A stretch of DNA of 64,000 bases from Nymphaea colorata (lineage: Eukaryota > Streptophyta > Magnoliopsida > Nymphaeales > Nymphaeaceae). Positions 27,303 through 62,400 of the stretch are shown piece after piece. Within the stretch, counting starts at the first letter, position 1. Each line of letters begins with the position of its first letter. The position numbers and the translations under genes were made by a program. The notes beneath the pieces were generated by a model. It was not told where the DNA came from and ran no database searches. It saw nothing but the letters and a program-made list of their open reading frames with translations. The DNA is taken from assembly GCF_008831285.2 (NCBI RefSeq), contig NC_045147.1, forward strand, positions 12,031,427 to 12,095,426, in the 5' to 3' direction.

Positions 27303-30300
27303 CAGTGTATCATGAATTTGCCGTAAATATATATATTTGTTGCTGTTTACAACCCGACCTAACCTCAGGCTTTCTTATAGAACAAAGGAAGTATCCTATT
27401 GCATTCAAATCATATATGAGATCATGGTTACACCTGGGAGGTTTATAAGATACGGTTGTAAACAAACCACAGTGCTAGAAGAAACCTTCACAGTAGTTTA
27501 TTGAAGTCCAGAGACAGCCCGACCATGAGGGAAGATGATTGTGTGATCGTCATTAAATTAATTCACTGACATATGCTGTTCATATCTAATGGGTGTACAT
27601 TTCAGTCACAGAAGGAGTTACCCATGCTCCATTCATTAATGACGCTCATTGGTGGTTTTTTGAATGAACCATTGAATATTTTTCCATGTTTATGGCTCTA
27701 AAATAGAAGCATGACAACCTGACAAACAAACTCGATTGTTTACGCTGACCAGAAAAATTTGAGCACAGTTTTGATTGGCATGTCAAGAATCAAAAATTAA
27801 CCGTAGAAGCATCATCGAAAGCATCAGCTTCTCAGACGCCATGGCAGGGTTGTATGCTTGAAAAGAGAGAAGAAGCCATCTCTAGCGATTTTTCAGCTCT
27901 AGTGTTTCACTAGGGATTCTTGTACTGCATCCAATTAAGTACTTAGCTTAAGCAGTCTGCTTTAAACAAGGAAAGAACAAAGTTTCACTACGATCATACA
28001 TTCATATTTTATCTCTAGTATTCTCCCGTGAATAAGACTATTGAGCCTCAAAGAAGCCGATGAACTGCGCGGACATGAAGGCCCTGATCAATGTGAAGGG
28101 TCAGCATGGTTTTGTAAGTCACCTCTTTAGATGGGTCCTTTAGATTGAATCTAAAGAAAACGGTAAGCAATGCAGCTACTATCTTCATCTGCCGATACGC
28201 GAAATCTTTACCCAAGCACGTCCGTGGACCAGCCTGTGACAGTGAATGAAAAAAATTTTGAGATTTTCTTTCTTCTAACCTGACAAGGATCTTGACATAA
28301 TGTCAGTTATTATGTGTATAAATGATGAAGCAAAACATTTGAGTGCTAACATGCGTGCCATATATGATTGTATAAAGAGCTCTACTTACATGGAATGCTG
28401 GAAATTTGAAAGGGGATTCTGGTCGGAAAACTCCATCGTGGAGCCATCTCCCTGGCCTGAAATCCTCCGCATCGTCGCCCCAGATATACTTCATCCTGCC
28501 CATCGCATAAGTTACATGGTTGACTCCATCACCTTTCTTCACTTTGAATCCATCAGGGAGGATGTCATCCTTGCATGCACTCTGTCTATCCTGGGAAAAC
28601 CCAATTAAGATGCATATTTATCTGGTTTGAGTGGCTGAAAGAAATCAATATCAAGTTTAAAGCGAACGGCCAGCAGGACAGTGACTTTCCCTATTACAGA
28701 AAAAGAAAAAGACACTCCTACAATTTCAGAAACAAGAAGGGCCCGTCTTTGAAAGTTATTCTTCAGAAGATGGCCAAATGCCTATAACTATCTTAGAGAT
28801 TTCATACAACGAGCTTCACACATGGAACTCTTGTCGTGTGTATGTCGTGGCCTTTCATAGACATTGACAGTTTCACCGTGGTCTGTCTTGCTAAAATTAC
28901 TACTCTTTCTTGCACTAAATGTCATCACAAGTGAAAAAAGCTGCAAATTGAAAGGTAGGGTTATTTTATTTGAGTGATGCCATGTTTCAATGTGCTTTTG
29001 TCATTGGTGATCAAGTTAATGACTTGAAGTACATGTTACTCCTAAAATCTGGAAAGGGGGAATGGAAAAAGCACTGACATACACTCTGAATGACAAAACA
29101 CCGTCATCAAATTTACGTGTATGTGCAGGTGGGTGCAAAAATGAGCAGAGTTTATAAATTATGTTATTCGCTTAACTAGGATGTATTTAACCAAAATGTC
29201 TTTAGTCAGATAAGAGTGTCAAAGCAGAGGAATTATAATGCTTACAATGGGGACTGCAGGATACAATCTCAAGGTTTCACTCAAAGCAGCATGAAGATAC
29301 TGCAGCTTTTCTAATGCGCCTTCTGTAAGTTTTTCGACAAACTGTGTAAACTGTCCTTTTTCACAAGAGCCAACAGTCTCCTTGACCTCCTGTGCAATCT
29401 TCTCTTGTATAAGCGGATGCTTGCAGAGCAAATATGTGAACCATGAAAGCGTGCCCGCAGTGGTATCTTTCCCGGCAAACATGAAGTTCAAAATGATATC
29501 CCTCAAGTAACGATCGTTCATGGTCTCCGGATTCTTCTTACTTTCCAAAAGGAACCTTGACAGAATATCTTCCTTCACCTATTATTATTTTTAAAACCCA
29601 GCAAATCATGTCTCCGCATTTAAAAACTTACACTTCCAAAAGAAAGGTCCAAAAGGTTGATGCTTGCATATGAACTTTGATGGCACGAGTACTTCTTCCG
29701 TCTAGAACTGATGATTTTGTTGATGAACTCATCAATCACTCCAATATTTTTCCTGAGTGTTGCTTCTGTACCAACATTAAGAAATCTCTTGACCTTCCAG
29801 AATAAGTAAACGTAACGGTGAAATGTCAAAGCGTTCGCTTCATCAAAAGCCTTGGCGAATGTAGTCGCTTCCTCGTTAGATCCATCCAAAATATTCAATT
29901 TCACCCCAAATCCAACTTCGAATATGGAGTCCAAGGAATATTTAGTGAATAATTCCTGCATTGGACACAGAGATACGTACATGAAAGCAATCACACTCCT
30001 GACGTAATACTTGTTCTGCACAGTTAACAGAAACAGTAACAAAAAGATAATGACGCTCGCGAGTTATGACCACAGGCATCGGTAGATCTAGCTTTTGATC
30101 AACTTGATAAGCTTTCTCGTTCTACATCAATCTGAGCAACTCAGACATTGAATTTGGCACAGAAACCCACAAAAGAAAAGAAAAACGATAATTCAAGACT
30201 GAGAAGCATGGTCGTCTTGCCATGGAACCAGAAGATGCAGCCCACCAATCTGGTTACTGGACGTTTTCATTTTTCTGTAGAACAGAGAAACAACTTTACT

Positions 30301-38861: not shown

Positions 38862-38893
38862 TTACAGATGGCGGTGAACTGCACGAACATGAA

Positions 38894-39193
38894 TGTTAAA
38901 AAAAGACCTTTCTTATCTTATCTTCTCCTTATTTGTTGCTTATCTTAACGGTAAGTGAAACTGCATTTGGATGAACTCAAAAGTTGTGGCATAAGATGAG
39001 CCAAATGTTGTTGAACTCCTTGTACAAATTTTTGTATATAAGTTGGAAGATCAATGAAAAGAAGCAAGGAATTCTCTTTTCCTCCCATTTTATCGGCTCT
39101 ATTTCCCCTCTCGCTCTCTTTGCCCAAATTGTTTCTTTCTCTTCTCGATCTGGTTCAGTGCACGTCCAGTCTCTTTCACAAGTCTTCTTCACA
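38894..39193 (+). repeat. 5' LTR of the older Copia
   Basis: Begins TGTTAAAAAAAGACC and ends CTTCTTCACA. TATATAAG at 39035-39042 is the likely TATA box. Confidence 0.9.
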
Positions 39194-39221
39194 TGGTATC
39201 AGAGCATGGAGAGAAGAAATT

Positions 39222-39437
39222 TGGCTGCTCCTGAAGTCTGAAGGTGTCATCTACCACCTTGACTGCCTGGTCATCAACACCTTCATCTTCATCGGCACCC
39301 TCTGCAGATGGGTTCGCTCCAATATCTACATCAACTGTTTTTTCAACCTCCCACAGAATCCCGTTCTGGACCTCAGTGTATGGGAATGAATCAGAGAGGA
39401 GCTCGCCCCCGGTGAGCAAATCCTGGTAGACCAACAT
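39222..39437 (-). pseudogene. TCTP: Antisense TCTP (translationally controlled tumour protein) fragment inside the Copia
   Basis: On the minus strand, ATG 39437 opens [20 protein letters not shown], then [32 protein letters not shown] and DTFRLQEQP, the N-terminal 70 or so residues of plant TCTP in order. TCTP is a small, very highly expressed cytosolic protein tied to growth control. No intron interrupts the 72 codons, suggesting capture from mRNA. Short in-frame gaps occur (after WEVE and in KVVD-DTF). The GTP/GEF-interacting C-terminal half is absent. It sits 12 bases after the element's PBS, opposite to the element's transcript, so the element would transcribe it as antisense TCTP. Sequence just upstream of the ATG (39438 to about 39540) may be its 5' UTR. 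Confidence 0.85.
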
Positions 39438-39540
39438 CGTTGCAGACAGCGACACCCTAGTGATCCGCCAAAATCGTATCGAGAAGAATGTTTTCCTGCC
39501 CAATCTCGCCTAAACTGAGATGACTTCGCATCCAAGAGAA

Positions 39541-40500
39541 TGTGAAAATCAGAGCTCGTTCATCTGCTATACTTCCTTCTCCTTCTGAAAATCAGCGTCT
39601 GATGGAGCCGTTTGGGTTTACTCTCCTTCTCCACCGCCTCAATTGCGTTCTTTTGCACGAGAAACCTGTAGAGCTTGACGAGGAGCGTCAGCATCATCAA
39701 CGTCAACAGAAAGATTTGGTTTCTTCTCTGATTTTAGACAGAGTTTTTCCAGCGAAGGAAAGAGGGAGGAAATAGAATTTGGGGCTATCGGACTGTAATT
39801 TTTTGAGGGGCGCTTTGAACTCTTTTTCTGATTGCTATAAGGTGAGAATGATGGTGATATTCTGACATCACTGTTTTTTTTCTGCCCCTTGAACATGAGC
39901 ATCGAAGCGTCCTGGTAGAAATTCGCGAGGCCTGCTCTGTTCGCACGCCTTCGCCACCGAGTCAAGATTCATCGATGAAGATCTTTCATCCATTCCCCTC
40001 TAGGTCCTGCAACTATGACTTCTCTATTTTCTAAGGAAGGAGGAAGACGTCTACTGCTAATCGAGGGACATCCCCAGCAGAGAGTATCAAGAGCTAAGGC
40101 CAGGCGTAAAGCCTGCTACAGTTACTGAAATCCGTGTTCAGACGAGAAGAAGCCGCTGCATCAAGGACGCCTCTGTAGCCTCTGTCGCTTCATCGGAAAC
40201 TAGCAGTCGCCGGATCTTCTAAATTTCTGTCGTTTTTCCTGTGGCAATTCTCTTCTCCTGCCACTACTCTGTTTTTTTTCAGTCATTAAGGAGCAGTCAT
40301 GGCGTCGACAGCAAAGGATATTGGCAGGCCGGAAGATACTAATGGCTATGAAAGTTCTCAGGTGATATCTCCTAACTTTCGCCCATCACTTGTTGCAGCT
40401 ACCATTCATAATCAAAGGCTGGTGGACCCCATGCGAGCGATGGTACTAGTTTCTTTGATAGAAACGGTCAATCTTTCAAGGAAGTTGTACCCTCATTCAC
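39541..40500 (+). other. Copia leader of mixed origin
   Basis: Between the TCTP fragment and the first Copia protein. No Gag domain is present. The minus strand at 39656-39685 encodes LLVKLYRFLV, the same ten residues as in ribosomal protein L18, but neighbouring residues do not match. The frame 40299-40676 (MASTAKDIGR...) may be a residual or novel gag start. Confidence 0.4.
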
Positions 40501-40501
40501 T

Positions 40502-43500
40502 ATGGATGAGTATCATAAACTCTTATCACTTGTTAGAACTCCCTCTGCCTTTATCAATTTCGCAGGTAATATATATTCATCTCATCTTTCTTGGATCATC
40601 GATTCTGGAGCAAGTCGGCACATTTGTGCCGATAGTTCTTTACTCCAAAAACAAACAAATTGCCAAGTACCTATAAACTTACCTAATGGACATACAATAA
40701 CTGTTGATCAATCTGGTGGTGTTAAACTACCACCTTTTACTTTTGAAAATTCATTGCATATTCCCTCTTTTAAAGTGAACCTACTCTCTGTGAGTCAATT
40801 GACCAAAGCACTAAACTGTTCCGTAACTTTTTTTCCTACTCATTGTGTCTTGCAGGATCTAGCGTCGAGGACGACGCTTGGTCAGGAGAAAGAAAAAGAA
40901 GACATATATGAACTCGATCCAGTGACTTCATCCACAAGCTGCTTTACTGTGTTATATTCCCAAAATCTCTAGCACAGGCGGTTCAGTCATCTTTCTCTTT
41001 CTGGTCTTAAACTTGTTGATTCTTATGTAGGTTTGAATTGCGATTTGAATAAGGAAATTTGTTGTGATGCTTGTCATCGCGTAAAGCAAACTCGTTTGAA
41101 GTTTGATTTAAGTAGTATTGAAACATCAAAGCTTTTTGAATTAATACACTATGATATTTGGGGGCCGTATACTCAGTCCACCCTTACTGGAGCACATTAT
41201 TTTTTAAGTATAGTTGATGACTATACAAGATCTACATGTGTTTTTCTAATGAGACATAAACATGAAACATTTCATCTCATGAAAATTTTTTTTGCCATGA
41301 TTAAAAATCAGTTTGGAGTCTGTATTAATAATGTGCGCTTAGATAATGGGTCTGAATTTTTTTCATATGAGATAAAATCTTTTTTTCAAATGCAAGACAC
41401 TTTACAACACAATTGTGTCGCTACTCTACAACAGAATGGAGTAGTAGAGCGAAAACATCGACATCTTTTAGAAATTGCTAGAGCTTTGCGTTTTGATGCA
41501 AATTTACCAAAACGTTTTTGGGGAAAGTGTGTTTTGACAGCAACTTACTTAATCAATCGCATCCCAACTCCAGTTTTGAAAGGAAAGTTACCATTTGAAA
41601 AATTGTTTAACAAAAGACCAAACTTCAAGCATTTGCGTATTTTTGGATCACTTTGTTATGCTACAAACAATGACCACAATAGAAATAAATTTGATGTTAG
41701 AGCTCATAAATGCATATTTCTTGGCTACCCTCAAGGACAGAAACCATACAAAGTATATGATCTAGAAAGTAAAAAGCTTTTTACTAGTCGAGATGTTATT
41801 TTCTATGAAAATATTTTGCCTTTTCAGCAAGAAAGAGAGAACGAAAGTTTGCCCGTATTGCCTTTGCCAATTACCCAAGTTGATGAAATTAGTCCCTTGG
41901 ATAACATTATTCATAATAACGACAGTCCAAATACACCTATACTTGAACCAAATCATAACCCATCAAATATGTCCATTAATCATGAAAATGACCCATCACC
42001 TGAGTCATCAAGCGAGGTTGTTCAACCACCTCAATCCAGTGCATCAAGTTCTATTGCTGAACCAAAGCCCACTGAATCATTAAGAAGATCCACTCGTCCA
42101 AAACGGCCAGTTACCTGGATGCGAGATTTCTATTGCTCTCTTATTCCGGCTCCCTCGATCAATGGTATCTCGACGTCCAGTGAAATGAAAGGCACAAGGT
42201 ATCCTCTTTCTAACTTTATTTCACTTTCTCGTTTCTCTCTCAGTACTCTCATTTCTTAGCAGCCATAGTGTCCACATCTGAACCAAAAACCTTTGAAGAG
42301 GCAGTTGGACATAGGGAGTGGCGAGAGACAATGAACTCAGAAATTAGTGCACTAAAGGAAAACAACACTTGGACGATGATCACCTTGCCAGAAGGAGTTA
42401 AGCCCATCGGTTGTAAGTGGGTTTACAAAATCAAGTTCAGATCAGACAGTACTATTGAGCGATACAAGGCACGACTGGTTGCCAAAGGTTATTCCCAACA
42501 AGAAGGACTCGACTACAATGAGACATTTGCACCAGTCGCAAAAATGGTAACTGTCCGAACTCTACTTTCAGTCGCTGCAGCAAATGATTGGTTACTATAC
42601 AAAATGGATGTGAATAATGCCTTTCTTTATGGTGATTTACTTGAAGAGGTCTATATGCAAGTTCCACCAGGATATGACCGTAAGGGGGAGAATCTAGTAT
42701 GTAAATTACATAAATCTCTCTATGGTCTCAAGCAGTCTCCTCGAAACTGGTTTCACAAGTAATCATTAGCACTGACAGAGTTTGGATTCAATCAATCAAA
42801 GATCACACATTGTTCACTTACAAACAAGGTCAATTTTTTGTTGTTGTTCTTGTTTATGTAGATGACCTTATTATTACGGGCAACACCAAGGAGCAAATTG
42901 ACAAATTTAAGCAGTTTTTATGCCAGAAATTTCGTATGAAAGATCTCGGTACTCTTAAATATTTTTTGGGTCTAGAAATTGCCCGTTCAAGTGCAGGAAT
43001 TTATGTTTCGTAGCAAAAATATGCTCTTGACATTATAAGCGAAACAGGTATGTTGGGTGCCAAGCTAGTGGAATTTCCAATGGAACAAAAGCATGGACTC
43101 GACTCCACACAAAGTCGGTTGCTAAGAGATCCGACTACGTATAGAAGGCTGGTAGGACGACTAATCTATTTAAGTATAACAAGGCCCGATATTCAATTTG
43201 CAGTTCACTTGTTAAGTCACTTCATGCAAACACCACGTGAGATATATCTTCAAGCTGCATTAAGAGTGGTCAAGTATATCAAGTTGAAGCCAGGACAAGG
43301 CATTCTTCTTAGTAAACAAACCAATCTTCAAATGTGTGTATTTTGTGACTCTGATTGGGCGGCGTGTCATGAAACACGAAGGTCAGTAACTGGTTACTGT
43401 GTTCTCCTTGGTGATTCTCTAATTTCATGGAAAACAAAAAAACAGCCCACAGTATCTCGCTCCTCTGCAGAAGCAGAATACAGGGCAATGACAAATGCAG

Positions 43501-43727
43501 TATGTGAAGTGACTTGGTTAAAGTTCTTGTTGATGGATCTAGGCGTGAGACATTCACAACCAGCAAATCTATATTGCGACAATTAGGCTGCTATGTATAT
43601 TGCAGCCAATCCAGTTTTTCACGAACGTACCAAGCATATAGATTTAGACGGTCATGTGGTGCAAGAAAAAATAAATGAAGGTCTAGTAAGGACCAGTTAC
43701 ATTAAGAACAACAGACTTATTCACTAA
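40502..43727 (+). pseudogene. Copia pol remnant: protease, integrase, RT, RNase H
   Basis: Protease WIIDSGASRHICAD near 40590; integrase with IVDDYTRS, RLDNGSEFF and QQNGVVERKH (41033-42259); RT from 42268 with [11 protein letters not shown] and YVDDLIITG; RNase H with DSDWAACHETRRSVTGY and SSAEAEYRAM (43050-43586). In-frame stops at about 40970, 43011 and 43584, and frame changes near 42260 and 42765. The element is not autonomous. Confidence 0.88.
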
Positions 43728-43806: not shown

Positions 43807-44109
43807 TGTTAAAAAAAGACCTTTCTTATCTCATCTCCTCCTTATTTGTTGCTTATCTTAACGATAAGTGAAACTGCATTTGGATGAACTCGAAAGTTGT
43901 GGGATAAGATGAGCCAAATGTTGTTGAACTCTTGTACAAATTTTTGTATATAAGTTGGAAGATCAGTGAAAAGAAGCAAGGAATTCTCTTTTCGTCGTCT
44001 CTTCTCTTTCTCTCTATTTCCCCTCTCTCTGTGCCCAATTTGTTTCTTTCTCTTCTCTTCTCGATCTGGTTCAGTGCTCGTCCAGTCTCTTTCACAAGTC
44101 TTCTTCACA
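43807..44109 (+). repeat. 3' LTR of the older Copia
   Basis: Matches 38894-39193 with scattered substitutions and indels, including a different CT-rich stretch near 44000. Confidence 0.9.
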
Positions 44110-46345
44110 GCCCCGATCAATGTGAAGAGTCAGCATGGTTTTGTAAGTCACTTCTTTAGACGGGTCCTTTAATTTGAATCTAAAGCAAGCAGTAAGCAGT
44201 GCAGCTACTATCTTCATCTGCCGATACGCGAAATCTTTACCCAAGCACGTTCGTGGACCAGCCTGTGACAGTGAATGAAAAATTTTGAGATTTTCTTTCT
44301 TCGGACCTGGATCTTGCCATAATGTTAGTTATTATGTGTGTAAATGATGCAGCAAAACGTTCGAGAGCTAACGTACGTGCAATATTTGATTGTATAAAGA
44401 ACTCTACTTACATGAAATGCTGGAAATTTGAAGGGGGATTCTGGTCTGAAAACTCCGTCGTGGAGCCATCTCTCTGGCCGGAAATTGTCCGCATGGTCGC
44501 CCCAGATATACTTCATTCTGCCCATCGCATAAGTTACATGGTTGACTCCATCACCTTTCTTCACTTTGAATCCATCAGGGAGGACGTCAACCTTGCATGC
44601 ATACTGTCTATCCTGGGAAAACTCAATTAAGATGCATATTTATCTGGTTTGAGTGGCCGGAAGAAATCAATATAAGTTTAAAGCAAAAAGCCAGCATGAC
44701 CGTGACTTTCCCTATTACAGGAAAAGAAAAAGGCACTCCTACAATTTCAGAAACAAGAAGGGCCATCTTTGAAAGTTATTCTTCAGAAAATTGCCAAATG
44801 CCTATAACTATCTTAGAGATTTCATACCACGAGCTTCACACATGGAACTCTAGTCGTGTGTTTCTCGTGACCTTTCGTAAACATTGACAGTTTCACCGTG
44901 GTATCTCCGCTAAAATTACTACTCTTTCTTGCACTAAATGTCATCACAAGTGAAAAAAGATGCAAATTGAAAGGTAGGGTTATTTTATTTGAGTGATGCC
45001 ATGTTTCGATGTGCTTGGGTCACTGGTGATCAAGGTAATGACTTGAAGTACCATGTTACTCCTAAAATCTGAAAAGGGGGAATAGAAACAGCACTGAACT
45101 ACACTCTGAATGACAAAACACCATCATCAAATCCGTATGTCTATGTGAAGGTGCGTGCAAACATGTGCAAAGCTTCTATGCTTCTTCTTATATGACAGAA
45201 CAGTTATGTTATATGCTATTTATCGAAGATGTATAAAACCAAAATGTCTTCAGTCAGATAAAGAGTGTCAAAGCAGAGGAATTATAATGCTTACAAGGGG
45301 GACTGCAGGGTACAATCTCAAGGTTTCGCTCAAAGCAGCATGAAGATACTGCTGCTTTTCTAATGCCCCTTCTGTAAGTTTTTCCAGAAACTGAGTAAAC
45401 TGTCCTTTTTCACCAGAACCAACTATCTCCTTGACCTCTTGTGCAGTCTTCTCTTGTATAAGGGGATGCTTGCAGGGAAAATATATGAACCATGAAAGCG
45501 TGCCACCAGTGGTATCCTTCCCGGCAATCATGAAGTTCAAAATGATATCCCTCAAGTAACGATCGTTTATGGTCTCCGGAGTCTTCTCACTTTCCAAAAG
45601 GAACCTTGACAAAATATCTTCACCTATTATTATTTTCAAAACCCAGCAAATCATGACTCTGCATTTAAAAAACTTACATAATTTGCTTCCAAATGAAAGG
45701 GTCCAAAAGGTTTATGACTTTGATGGCACGAGTACTGCTTCCGTCTAGACCTGATGATTTTATGGATGAATTCATTAATCACTGCAATATTTTTTCTGAG
45801 TGTTGCTTCTGTACCAACATTGAAAAATCTCTTGACCTTCCAGAATAAGTTAACGTAACGGTGAAATGTCAAAGCGTTCGCTTCATCAAAAGCCTTGGCG
45901 AATGTAATCGCTTCCTCGTTAGATTCATCCAAAATATTCAATTTGAGCCCAAATCTAACTTCGAATATGGAGTCCATGGAATATTTAGTGAATAATTCCT
46001 GCATTGGACACAGAGATACGTACATGAAAGCAATCACACTCCACACGTAATACTTGATCTGCACGGTTAACAGAAACAGTAACAAAAAGATAATAACGCT
46101 CGCGACATATGACCATAGGCATCGGTAGATCTAGCTTTTGTTCAACTTGATAAGCTTTCTCGTTCTAAATCAATCTGATCAACTCAGACATTGAATTGGG
46201 CACAGAAACCCCTAAAAGAAAAAGAAAAACGATAATTCAAGACTGAGAAGCATGGTCGTGTTGCCATGGAACCAGAAGGTGCAGCGCACCAATCTGGTTA
46301 CTGGACGTTTTCATTTCTCTGGAGAACAGAGAAACAACTTTACTT

Positions 46346-59414: not shown

Positions 59415-62400
59415 TCAAAGAAGCCGATGAACTGCGCGGACATGAAGGCCCTGATCAATGTGAAGGGTCAGCATAGTTTTGTAAGTCACCTCTTTAGATG
59501 GGTCCTTTAGATTGAATCTAAAGAAAGCGGTAAGCAATGCAGCTACTATCTTCATCTGCCGATACGCGAAATCTTTACCCAAGCACGTCCGTGGACCAGC
59601 CTGTGACAGTGAATGAAAAAAAAAATTGAGATTTTCTTTCTTCTAACCTGACAAGGATCTTGACATAATGTTAGTTATCATGTGTATAAATGATGAATCA
59701 AAACATTCGAGAGCTAACATGCGTGCCATATATGATTGTATAAAGAACTGTACTTACATGAAATGCTGGAAATTTGAAAGCGGATTCTGGTCGGAAAACT
59801 CCATCGTGGAGCCATCTCTCTGGCCTGAAATCCTCCGCATCGTCGCCCCAGATGTACTTCATCCTGCCCATCGCGTAAGTTACATGGTTGACTCCATCAC
59901 CTTTCTTCACTTTGAATCCATCAGGGAGGATGTCATCCTCGCATGCACACTGTCTATCCTGGGAAAACCCAATTAACATGCATATTTATCTGGTTTGAGT
60001 GGCTGAAAGAAATCAATATCAAGTTTAAAGCAAACAGCCAGCATGACAGTGACTTTCCCTATTACAGAAAAAGAAAAAGACGCTCCTACAATTTCAGAAA
60101 CAAGAAGGACCATCTTTGAAAGTTATTCTTCAGAAGATGGGCAAATGTCTATAACTATCTTAGAGATTTCATACCACGAGCTTCACACATGGCACTCTAG
60201 TCGTGTGTCTCTCGTGGCCTTTCATAGACATTGACAGTTTCACCATGGTCTCTCTTGCTAAAATTACTAGAAACTCTTTCTTGCACTAACTGTCATCACA
60301 AGTGAAAAAAGCTGCAAATTGAAAGGTAGGGTTATTTTATTTGAGTGATGCCATGTTTCAATGTGCTTTGTCACTGGTGATCAAGTTAATGACTTGAAGT
60401 ACCATGTTACTCCTAAAATCTGAAAAGGGGGAATAGAAAAAGCACTGACATACACTCTGAATGACAAAATACCATCATCAAATCTGTGTGTGTATGTGCA
60501 GGTGCGTGCAAACATGTGCAAAGCTTCTATGCGTCTTCTTATATAACAGAACAGTTATGTTATATGCTATTTATCGAAGATGTATTAAACCAATTGTCTT
60601 CAGTCAGATAAGAATGTCAAAGCAGAGGAATTATAATGCTTACAAGGGGGACTGCAGGGTACAATCTCAAGGTTTCACTCAAAGCAGCATGAAGATACTG
60701 CAGCTTTTCTAATGCTCCTTCTGTAAGTTTTTCCACAAACTGAGTAAACTGTCCTTTTTCACAAGAACCAACTATTTCCTTGACCTCCTGTGCAATCTTC
60801 TCTTGTATAAGAGGATGCTTGCAGAGCAAATATATGAACCATGAAAGCGTGCCCCCAGTCGTATCTTTCCCGGCAAACATGAAGTTCAAAATGATATCCC
60901 TCAAGTAACGATCGTTCATGGTCTCCGGATTCTTCTCACTTTCCAAAAGGAACCTTGACAGAATATCTTCCTTCACCTATTGTTATTTTCAAAACCCAGC
61001 AAATCATGTCTCTGCATTTGAAAAACTTACATAATTTGTTTCCAAATGAGAGGGTCTAAAAGGTTTATGCTTAGTCTAAAAGGTTTATGCTTACATATGA
61101 ACTTTGATGGCACAAGTACTGCTTCCGTCTAGAACTGATGATTTTATAGATGAATTCATCAATCACTGCAATATTTTTTCTGAGTGTTGCTTCTGTACCA
61201 ACATTGAAAAATCTCTCGACCTTCCAGAATAAGTCAACGTAACGGTGAAATGTCAAAGCGTTCGATTCATCAAAAGCCTTGGCGAATGCAATCGCTTCCT
61301 CATTAGATCCATCCAAAATATTCAATTTGAGCCCAAATCCAACTTCGAATATGGTGTTCATGGAATATTTAGTTAATAATTCCTGCATTGGACACAGAGA
61401 TACGTACATGAAAGCAATCACACACCACACGTATACTTGTTCTGCACAGTTAACAGAAACAGTAACAAAAAGATAATTAACGCTCGCGAATTATGACCGC
61501 ATGCATCGGTAGATCTATCTTTTGAACAACTTGATAAGCTTTCTTGTTCTACATTAATCTGATCAACTATGACATTGAATTTGGCACAGAAACCCCCAAA
61601 AGAAAAATAAAAACGATTATTCAAGACTGAGAAGCATGGTCGTCTCGCCATGGAACCAGAAGATGCAGCGCACCAATCTGGTTACTGGACGTTTTCATTT
61701 TTCTGTAGGACAGAGAAACAACTTTACTTTAGTGGGAGCATTTGTAATTTTTTTGAGAACAGAGAAACTACTTCAGTGGTGGAAAACCAGGTGGAACTAG
61801 TTACTTTAACCTGTCGTTCCACCATAGGCTTTCTGAGATGGTAGAGCACCGAGCGGGTAGAAGAACTAGATAAAAGCTCCTTGAACTCATTAAACTGTCA
61901 CCTCTGCAGCTATACTGGTCACTTGCCCCAAAAGGGCCGCAGCGTTGTTGGAGCCTTATGATCAGCCTTGTTCTACCAACCGGCGCTCGTCACCAATTCA
62001 GATGTTTCGGCAATACTTTTTAACTGTGCTTTCAAATGTTCGCTTCCCTGTTTAAGAAAAATCATGGTGGTGTCGAAGCGTATGTGTCTGACATAAGAAA
62101 ATTGGGTGGAAAAGGCTGCAACTAAAGAAGTACATCTACTTAATCCATGAAGAAGACAGGAAATCTTGTGAACAAGGTCAATACGCTCACATGCATATCC
62201 ATGGGCTGATCGGCCTCTAAATTATCTGAAATCTTCTGTGCAAGGACAGCTCCGTTCCTCCGAAAAACGACGCTGCTTAAATCTCTCAGCATCTTGGTGG
62301 AGAACTCGTAGCTTGCTACTTTTCTTTGGTGACGCCATTTCTGACCATCCACTGCAAAAATACCATCTCCAAGAAGATCCTTCGTTATCTCCTGATGATA

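Follow-up and report, generated by a model that had tools for sequence, protein, structure and literature searches.

The window, that is, the whole stretch of 64,000 nucleotides from Nymphaea colorata analysed here, lies at C10:12031427-12095426 and carries a decayed, gag-deleted Ty1/copia LTR retrotransposon (Table 1). Between its paired LTRs there are 7 differences over 241 reliably aligned positions, or 26 over 298 when a poorly aligning, pyrimidine-rich tract is counted. The PBS behind the 5' LTR is presumably of the initiator tRNA-Met type, and a candidate PPT, TTTTAGGGGGAC, was recognized by eye just before the 3' LTR. These hallmarks of Ty1/copia elements are accompanied by the corresponding order of pol, with integrase ahead of reverse transcriptase. 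Pfam matched Pol_BBD, rve and SH3_retrovirus within 40412-42259 (rve with 31.4 bits, just under its cut-off of 32.6) and RVT_2, spread over two frames, within 42214-43013; no Pfam match was obtained for the RNase H region at 43014-43586. The element breaks the end of a P450-like gene (flanks, 38865-38893 and 44110-44262), with a p450 domain (Pfam) in the adjacent frame 44325-44639, and the uninterrupted end of such a gene is seen in two paralogs within the window (28051-28233 and 59418-59600). By eye, the 5-bp target-site duplication of Ty1/copia elements was not found, the flanks ...ATGAA and GCCCC... being unlike, and about one base has apparently been lost at the insertion site relative to these paralogs.

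Table 1 Features of the Copia element in the window (positions are those of the window)
Feature	Position	Strand	Evidence or matching loci
5' LTR (TG...CA)	38894..39193	+	Direct repeat with 43807-44109
PBS TGGTATCAGAGC	39194..39205	+	Read from sequence
Antisense spliced TCTP cDNA (part of exon 4, exons 3, 2, 1, 5'UTR)	39202..39468	-	blastn against the parent gene, Pfam
Antisense La-protein gene fragment, one exon	39465..39555	-	L020, C1:30003045-30003135, 90%
Two pieces also found behind the PBS of Copia L040/L048 (C2)	39552..39646		25 nt 84%, 75 nt 87%
Short antisense RPL18 piece	39653..39693	-	Longer spliced RPL18 piece in Copia L047
Leader repeat holding the NTF2 piece	39717..40036	+	Many other loci, mostly 68-75% identity (40 of 105 candidates scored)
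Antisense NTF2 first-exon fragment (gene L021)	39840..39983	-	Two pieces, 85 and 92%
Short leader modules common to siblings L024-L027	40077..40260	+	
Remnant of gag start, about first 100 nt	40267..40369	+	Sibling comparison
Degenerate pol, several broken frames (Pol_BBD, rve, SH3_retrovirus, RVT_2)	40370..43586	+	Pfam
3' LTR	43807..44109	+	Direct repeat with 5' LTR

Antisense TCTP behind the PBS

The leader, by which we mean the region from the PBS to gag, opens with a spliced copy of TCTP in antisense orientation. The minus-strand frame 39189-39509 matched the Pfam TCTP family (PF00838) with an E value of 8.1e-17, as well as solved TCTP chains, and the parent gene (L019) was located in the same genome at C10:23279200-23282800, coding on the minus strand. 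Leader bases 9-38, 37-144, 149-217 and 216-275 correspond to its exon 4, exon 3, exon 2, and exon 1 plus 5'UTR, with identities of 93, 91, 97 and 93%, respectively, and 12 of the 267 aligned bases are mismatched (4.5%). All three parent introns (1149, 93 and 108 nt; GT...AG) are missing from the copy, which rules out retained introns: the flanking exons meet precisely at the sites of introns 1 and 3, and the site of intron 2 falls inside an 18-nt loss at the exon 2/3 border. The copy has further lost 6 nt of exon 3 and the greater part of exon 4; the second of these losses is bounded by two GGAGCAACC repeats. A protein search of the genome with TCTP, in which all six candidates were scored, returned the window copy and two TCTP genes and nothing else. 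Spliced host exons inside an LTR pair, with the parent gene elsewhere, are what characterizes host-gene capture of the Bs1 kind; a processed pseudogene of the LINE type does not fit, as TCTP starts within exon 4 and no A/T tract stands at the PBS join.

A preliminary description of this DNA had already recognized an intron-free antisense TCTP sequence behind the PBS within a Copia LTR pair, and this is borne out by a match far better than random and by the lack of any retained intron. Two of its details require correction. The distance from the PBS is not 12 bases but zero, because the TCTP match begins at 39202, inside the PBS, the last four PBS bases (GAGC) being common to both; and the span described, 39194-39540, holds TCTP as far as 39468 and runs on into a second host gene, La. 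It had also held that gag is gone and that TCTP occupies its place. The gag body is indeed deleted, at 40369/40370, about 0.9 kb downstream of TCTP: six relatives (L028, L029, L031, L034, L036 and L037) have 797-858 nt at this position, and the Copia gag domain of L028 lies in the stretch deleted from the window element. The start of gag is retained, however, so that only about its first 100 nt are left, and two relatives without TCTP, L024 and L026, are continuous across the same deletion, which rules out TCTP as a replacement for gag.

The TCTP fragment and the parent cDNA have 43 perfect 21-mers and 27 perfect 24-mers in common, which would permit, without demonstrating, a dsRNA effect on TCTP. 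That the fragment persists because antisense RNA or siRNA from it lowers TCTP to the benefit of the element could be argued from these shared words, but we find it hardly credible: the fragment exists in one copy only, the pol of that copy is broken, and the other captured genes have no evident common theme.

Captured pieces in the leader and in related elements

Behind the PBS, the leader is a chain of TCTP, La, sequence from the leader of another Copia element, RPL18 and NTF2. The La fragment is identified by the La-domain match (Pfam) of exons that lie upstream in its parent gene and on the same strand; the exon holding the captured stretch had no Pfam match of its own. The fragment differs from its parent at 9 of 91 positions (9.9%) and occurs in the window element only, among the 40 of 105 candidates scored. 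For the NTF2 fragment, the mismatch with the parent is 12%, and farther downstream, window positions 40030-40285 matched only themselves and the L027 locus in a genome search. The mismatch differs between NTF2 and TCTP with a p of 0.008 and between TCTP and La with a Fisher p of 0.07; because of this latter difference in divergence from the parents, a single event for TCTP and La is not proven. The increase from TCTP through La to NTF2 would fit an order in which the newest piece lies nearest the PBS, but dating by mismatch was dropped, as the rates of the parents differ.

Relatives of the window element were gathered by LTR and pol searches, and the 5' parts of the loci were compared. In L031 and L034, the leader starts within the PBS with the antisense first exon of SPF27/BCAS2, which in L031 covers 276 of the 291 nt between the PBS and the presumed gag ATG as three matches that overlap on the element and are gapped in the gene. 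The parent gene (L081), which we take to be SPF27, has a BCAS2 domain (Pfam; E, 9.9e-12). The leader of L027 carries pieces of SPF27 and of two further genes, namely CWC25, as we name the parent L082 (Cir_N domain, Pfam; E, 1.6e-15), and what we assume from its protein to be VOZ (L043), for which Pfam gave no match. The CWC25 and VOZ pieces lie 436-894 bases into the L027 leader, away from the PBS. The VOZ piece has 93-98% identity to its parent, lacks one intron, has one internal loss, and was found in the L027 element only (genome search, all candidates scored). L047, a Copia element by the similarity of its gag to that of L008, holds antisense RPL18 with 80 uninterrupted residues in one match, as opposed to two separated matches each for RPL18 at C10:23599592- and C5:25735967-; of the nine matches obtained in this search, the remaining ones are shorter or diverged. 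Three captured genes, TCTP, VOZ and RPL18, thus lack introns that are present in the host gene.

In L035, an L024-like leader in reverse complement (L024 1233-1005, then 922-475) directly follows the LTR and is itself followed by pol; no PBS was found in this locus, and gag and protease are missing (L035 388-1066). It looks as if plus-strand DNA had copied element RNA rather than mRNA. An inversion of DNA is possible, but alone would not remove the PBS.

Several other leader sequences were noted. L024 523-760 (reverse-oriented coordinates) matches, at 84% identity, six units arrayed in tandem about 4 kb apart on C9 (C9:18538579-18558971); this locus (L044) was excluded from the count of captured genes. 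A PADRE-domain capture in L048 was rejected, with an E value of 0.0015, under the cut-off, in the frame scan and no match for the isolated segment. Antisense frames of about 100-190 codons in the long Copia leaders of L058, L070 and L076 matched no Pfam family; that of L058 begins at the PBS. Window positions 40370-40860 resemble many loci at about 86% (L036-L038 and others on C4, C15 and small contigs). L036-L038 also align with the gag region of L028, and from these alignments such loci appear to form a Copia family that is related but has more members. The PBS preceded by CACA occurs at 143 places in the 408-Mb genome by exact match. Among the first 30 of these sites, 13 have an open frame of at least 390 codons that begins no more than 290 bases from the PBS, and several of the rest closely resemble these 13; many Copia elements in the genome therefore probably have short leaders.

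Strand bias and junctions

The captured pieces lie almost uniformly on the strand opposite to the element. For six genes (TCTP, La, NTF2, CWC25, VOZ and SPF27), 38 of 40 matched stretches were antisense in 26 leaders chosen from the compared loci (blastn on both strands, E up to 1e-4; the count leaves out leaders L030, L036-L038, L042 and L049-L078), as opposed to the usual orientation of captured pieces in the sense of gag-pol. The two sense exceptions are a CWC25 piece in the inverted leader of L035 and a 21-nt match in L033. At all 11 loci of the NTF2 repeat (L008-L018), the gag start was found on the strand taken as sense, and the gene strands were rechecked. Since many matched stretches copy one event, genes rather than stretches were taken as the unit of the strand test: with RPL18 (L047) added, seven of seven host genes are antisense (two-sided sign test, 0.016), these seven coming from inspection of selected relatives and not from a genome-wide survey. 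A Pfam scan of 18 leaders in three frames per strand (54 frames a strand) gave RPL18 (6e-23), TCTP (1e-15), BCAS2 (8e-7) and four weaker matches (0.0015-0.026) on the antisense strand, and three matches (0.0076-0.048) on the sense strand.

Such a bias might arise if capture were neutral with respect to orientation and selection then removed sense pieces whose start codons or upstream frames block the translation of gag. Indeed, the host start codon lies inside five of the seven captured pieces (TCTP, SPF27, CWC25, NTF2 and RPL18), which in the sense orientation would create upstream frames, and the pieces that have spread, namely the NTF2 repeat and the SPF27 leaders, have passed such a filter. 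Nevertheless, we regard this explanation as quite unlikely, since TCTP (window) and VOZ (L027) occur in one element each, with all candidates scored, and are antisense although they have had little chance to be filtered after capture; La is likewise antisense in one element, among 40 of 105 candidates scored. Moreover, selection would not predict joining inside the PBS.

That joining is seen for two different genes, both of which start inside the last PBS bases: TCTP with a microhomology of 4 nt (GAGC) and SPF27 in L031 with one of 2 nt. At the third clean junction, the end of TCTP (39468) and the start of La (39465) overlap in CCGC, again 4 nt. With three clean junctions of 4, 4 and 2 nt, the chance of at least 4 nt at a single junction is 0.016 for equal base frequencies. 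At the CWC25/VOZ junction of L027, ungapped microhomology was ruled out, 5 nt being obtained only with a one-base gap. A few common bases at some junctions, together with intron-free pieces, would also be left if DNA breaks in a pre-existing Copia leader had taken up processed pseudogenes or cDNA filler. This origin is very unlikely, given that it would be expected to give both orientations and that no poly-A/T tract marks the truncated 3' side of TCTP; in addition, the inverted element leader in L035 is not host cDNA.

Capture during plus-strand synthesis: a proposed mechanism

The antisense orientation and the removal of introns together indicate that sense mRNA was copied into DNA with the polarity of the element plus strand. 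The TCTP and VOZ pieces run from mRNA 3' to 5' along that strand, the order that plus-strand DNA would acquire by copying spliced mRNA. In the normal course of reverse transcription, plus-strand strong-stop DNA begins at the PPT, extends through U3-R-U5 and stops once the PBS has been copied from the tRNA; a transfer to the PBS complement on the minus-strand DNA follows. The site of its 3' end, the PBS, coincides with the start of the TCTP and SPF27 pieces. We therefore lean toward the view that the leader was built by template switching of reverse transcriptase in plus-strand synthesis, which we consider somewhat probable. From the chain of pieces, their orientation and exon order, the missing introns, the junctions and the sibling pattern, we infer a misdirected strand transfer and the packaging of host mRNA, in one or several rounds for TCTP and La.

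Through microhomology, the 3' end of the strong-stop DNA (...GAGC) would anneal to TCTP mRNA carried in the particle, and copying toward the 5' end of the mRNA would add antisense, intron-free exons 4, 3, 2 and 1 and the 5'UTR. The growing end would then hop at CCGC onto La mRNA and from there to Copia leader RNA or DNA that already had older antisense captures (RPL18 and NTF2), and a last hop would return it to the element. Such a course needs an extra step that completes the minus strand across the insert. Against a start at the PBS, the CWC25, VOZ (L027), RPL18 and NTF2 pieces sit internally in their leaders, so that either later events pushed them inward or switching occurs elsewhere too.

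Alternatively, a host mRNA may have been reverse-transcribed separately in the particle, with minus-strand DNA copying that first-strand cDNA to give an antisense insert. The same orientation and loss of introns would result, and mRNA capture at microsimilarities during cDNA synthesis is a published scheme (described in PMC5408686). We hold this route to be unlikely all the same, because it calls for an extra priming event for every mRNA and offers no reason for a start inside the PBS in two different genes.

LTR elements are known to capture genes, which reviews explain by read-through transduction or template switching (PMC13317346, PMC5408686). Bs1 of maize, as described in PMC13317346, carries pieces of three host genes and gave rise to a chimeric gene; the window element resembles it in having several host gene pieces within one LTR element, but differs in that its identified pieces are antisense and in the leader, whereas transduced pieces are usually in the sense of gag-pol according to PMC7264820. 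The scheme of LTR-mediated retroposition by Tan et al. (2016), as described in PMC5408686, has template switching at microsimilarities and shares with our proposal packaged mRNA, switching at short matches and the possibility of multiple switches. There, however, the switch precedes second-strand synthesis, whereas here the orientation and the junction at the PBS suggest that it took place as the plus strand was made; from a switch in first-strand synthesis we would expect sense inserts. Chimeras from abnormal template switching in the particle are also described for LTR elements of Triticeae (PMC1950507), including Veju and BARE-2 (PMC13317346), but these, unlike the present case, join element to element. 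The additional antisense ORFs of Grande, RIRE2 and Retand are likewise antisense coding-like sequences within plant LTR elements. As presented in PMC7264820, they lie between pol and the 3' LTR, are conserved and resemble no known proteins, in contrast to the present pieces, which lie between the PBS and gag, come from identified parent genes and encode no intact protein.

The antisense, PBS-joined form of capture appears to be undescribed in the open literature searched. No description of antisense host cDNA behind a PBS was found there, an absence that is weak because subscription journals were mostly uncovered. The main text of PMC1950507 contains neither 'antisense' nor 'inverted', and those of PMC13317346 (a 2026 review of plant gene capture) and PMC3726574 (a survey of rice and sorghum) contain neither 'antisense' nor 'orientation'.

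For the related Copia lineages as a whole, we give an even chance to a broader reading, in which the untranslated leader has been repeatedly rebuilt by aberrant second-strand transfer of plus-strand strong-stop DNA that runs from the PBS over packaged host mRNAs and returns near gag. Leaders would thereby become strings of antisense host 5' ends, some of which (SPF27 and NTF2) would later have multiplied along with the family. If antisense orientation and joining at the PBS proved to be a consistent signature, the second strand transfer would be implicated as a capture step, which could be tested for in any plant genome. Antisense sequence within LTR elements would then also have a possible origin; PMC7264820 describes most of the antisense ORFs that it covers as being of unknown origin.
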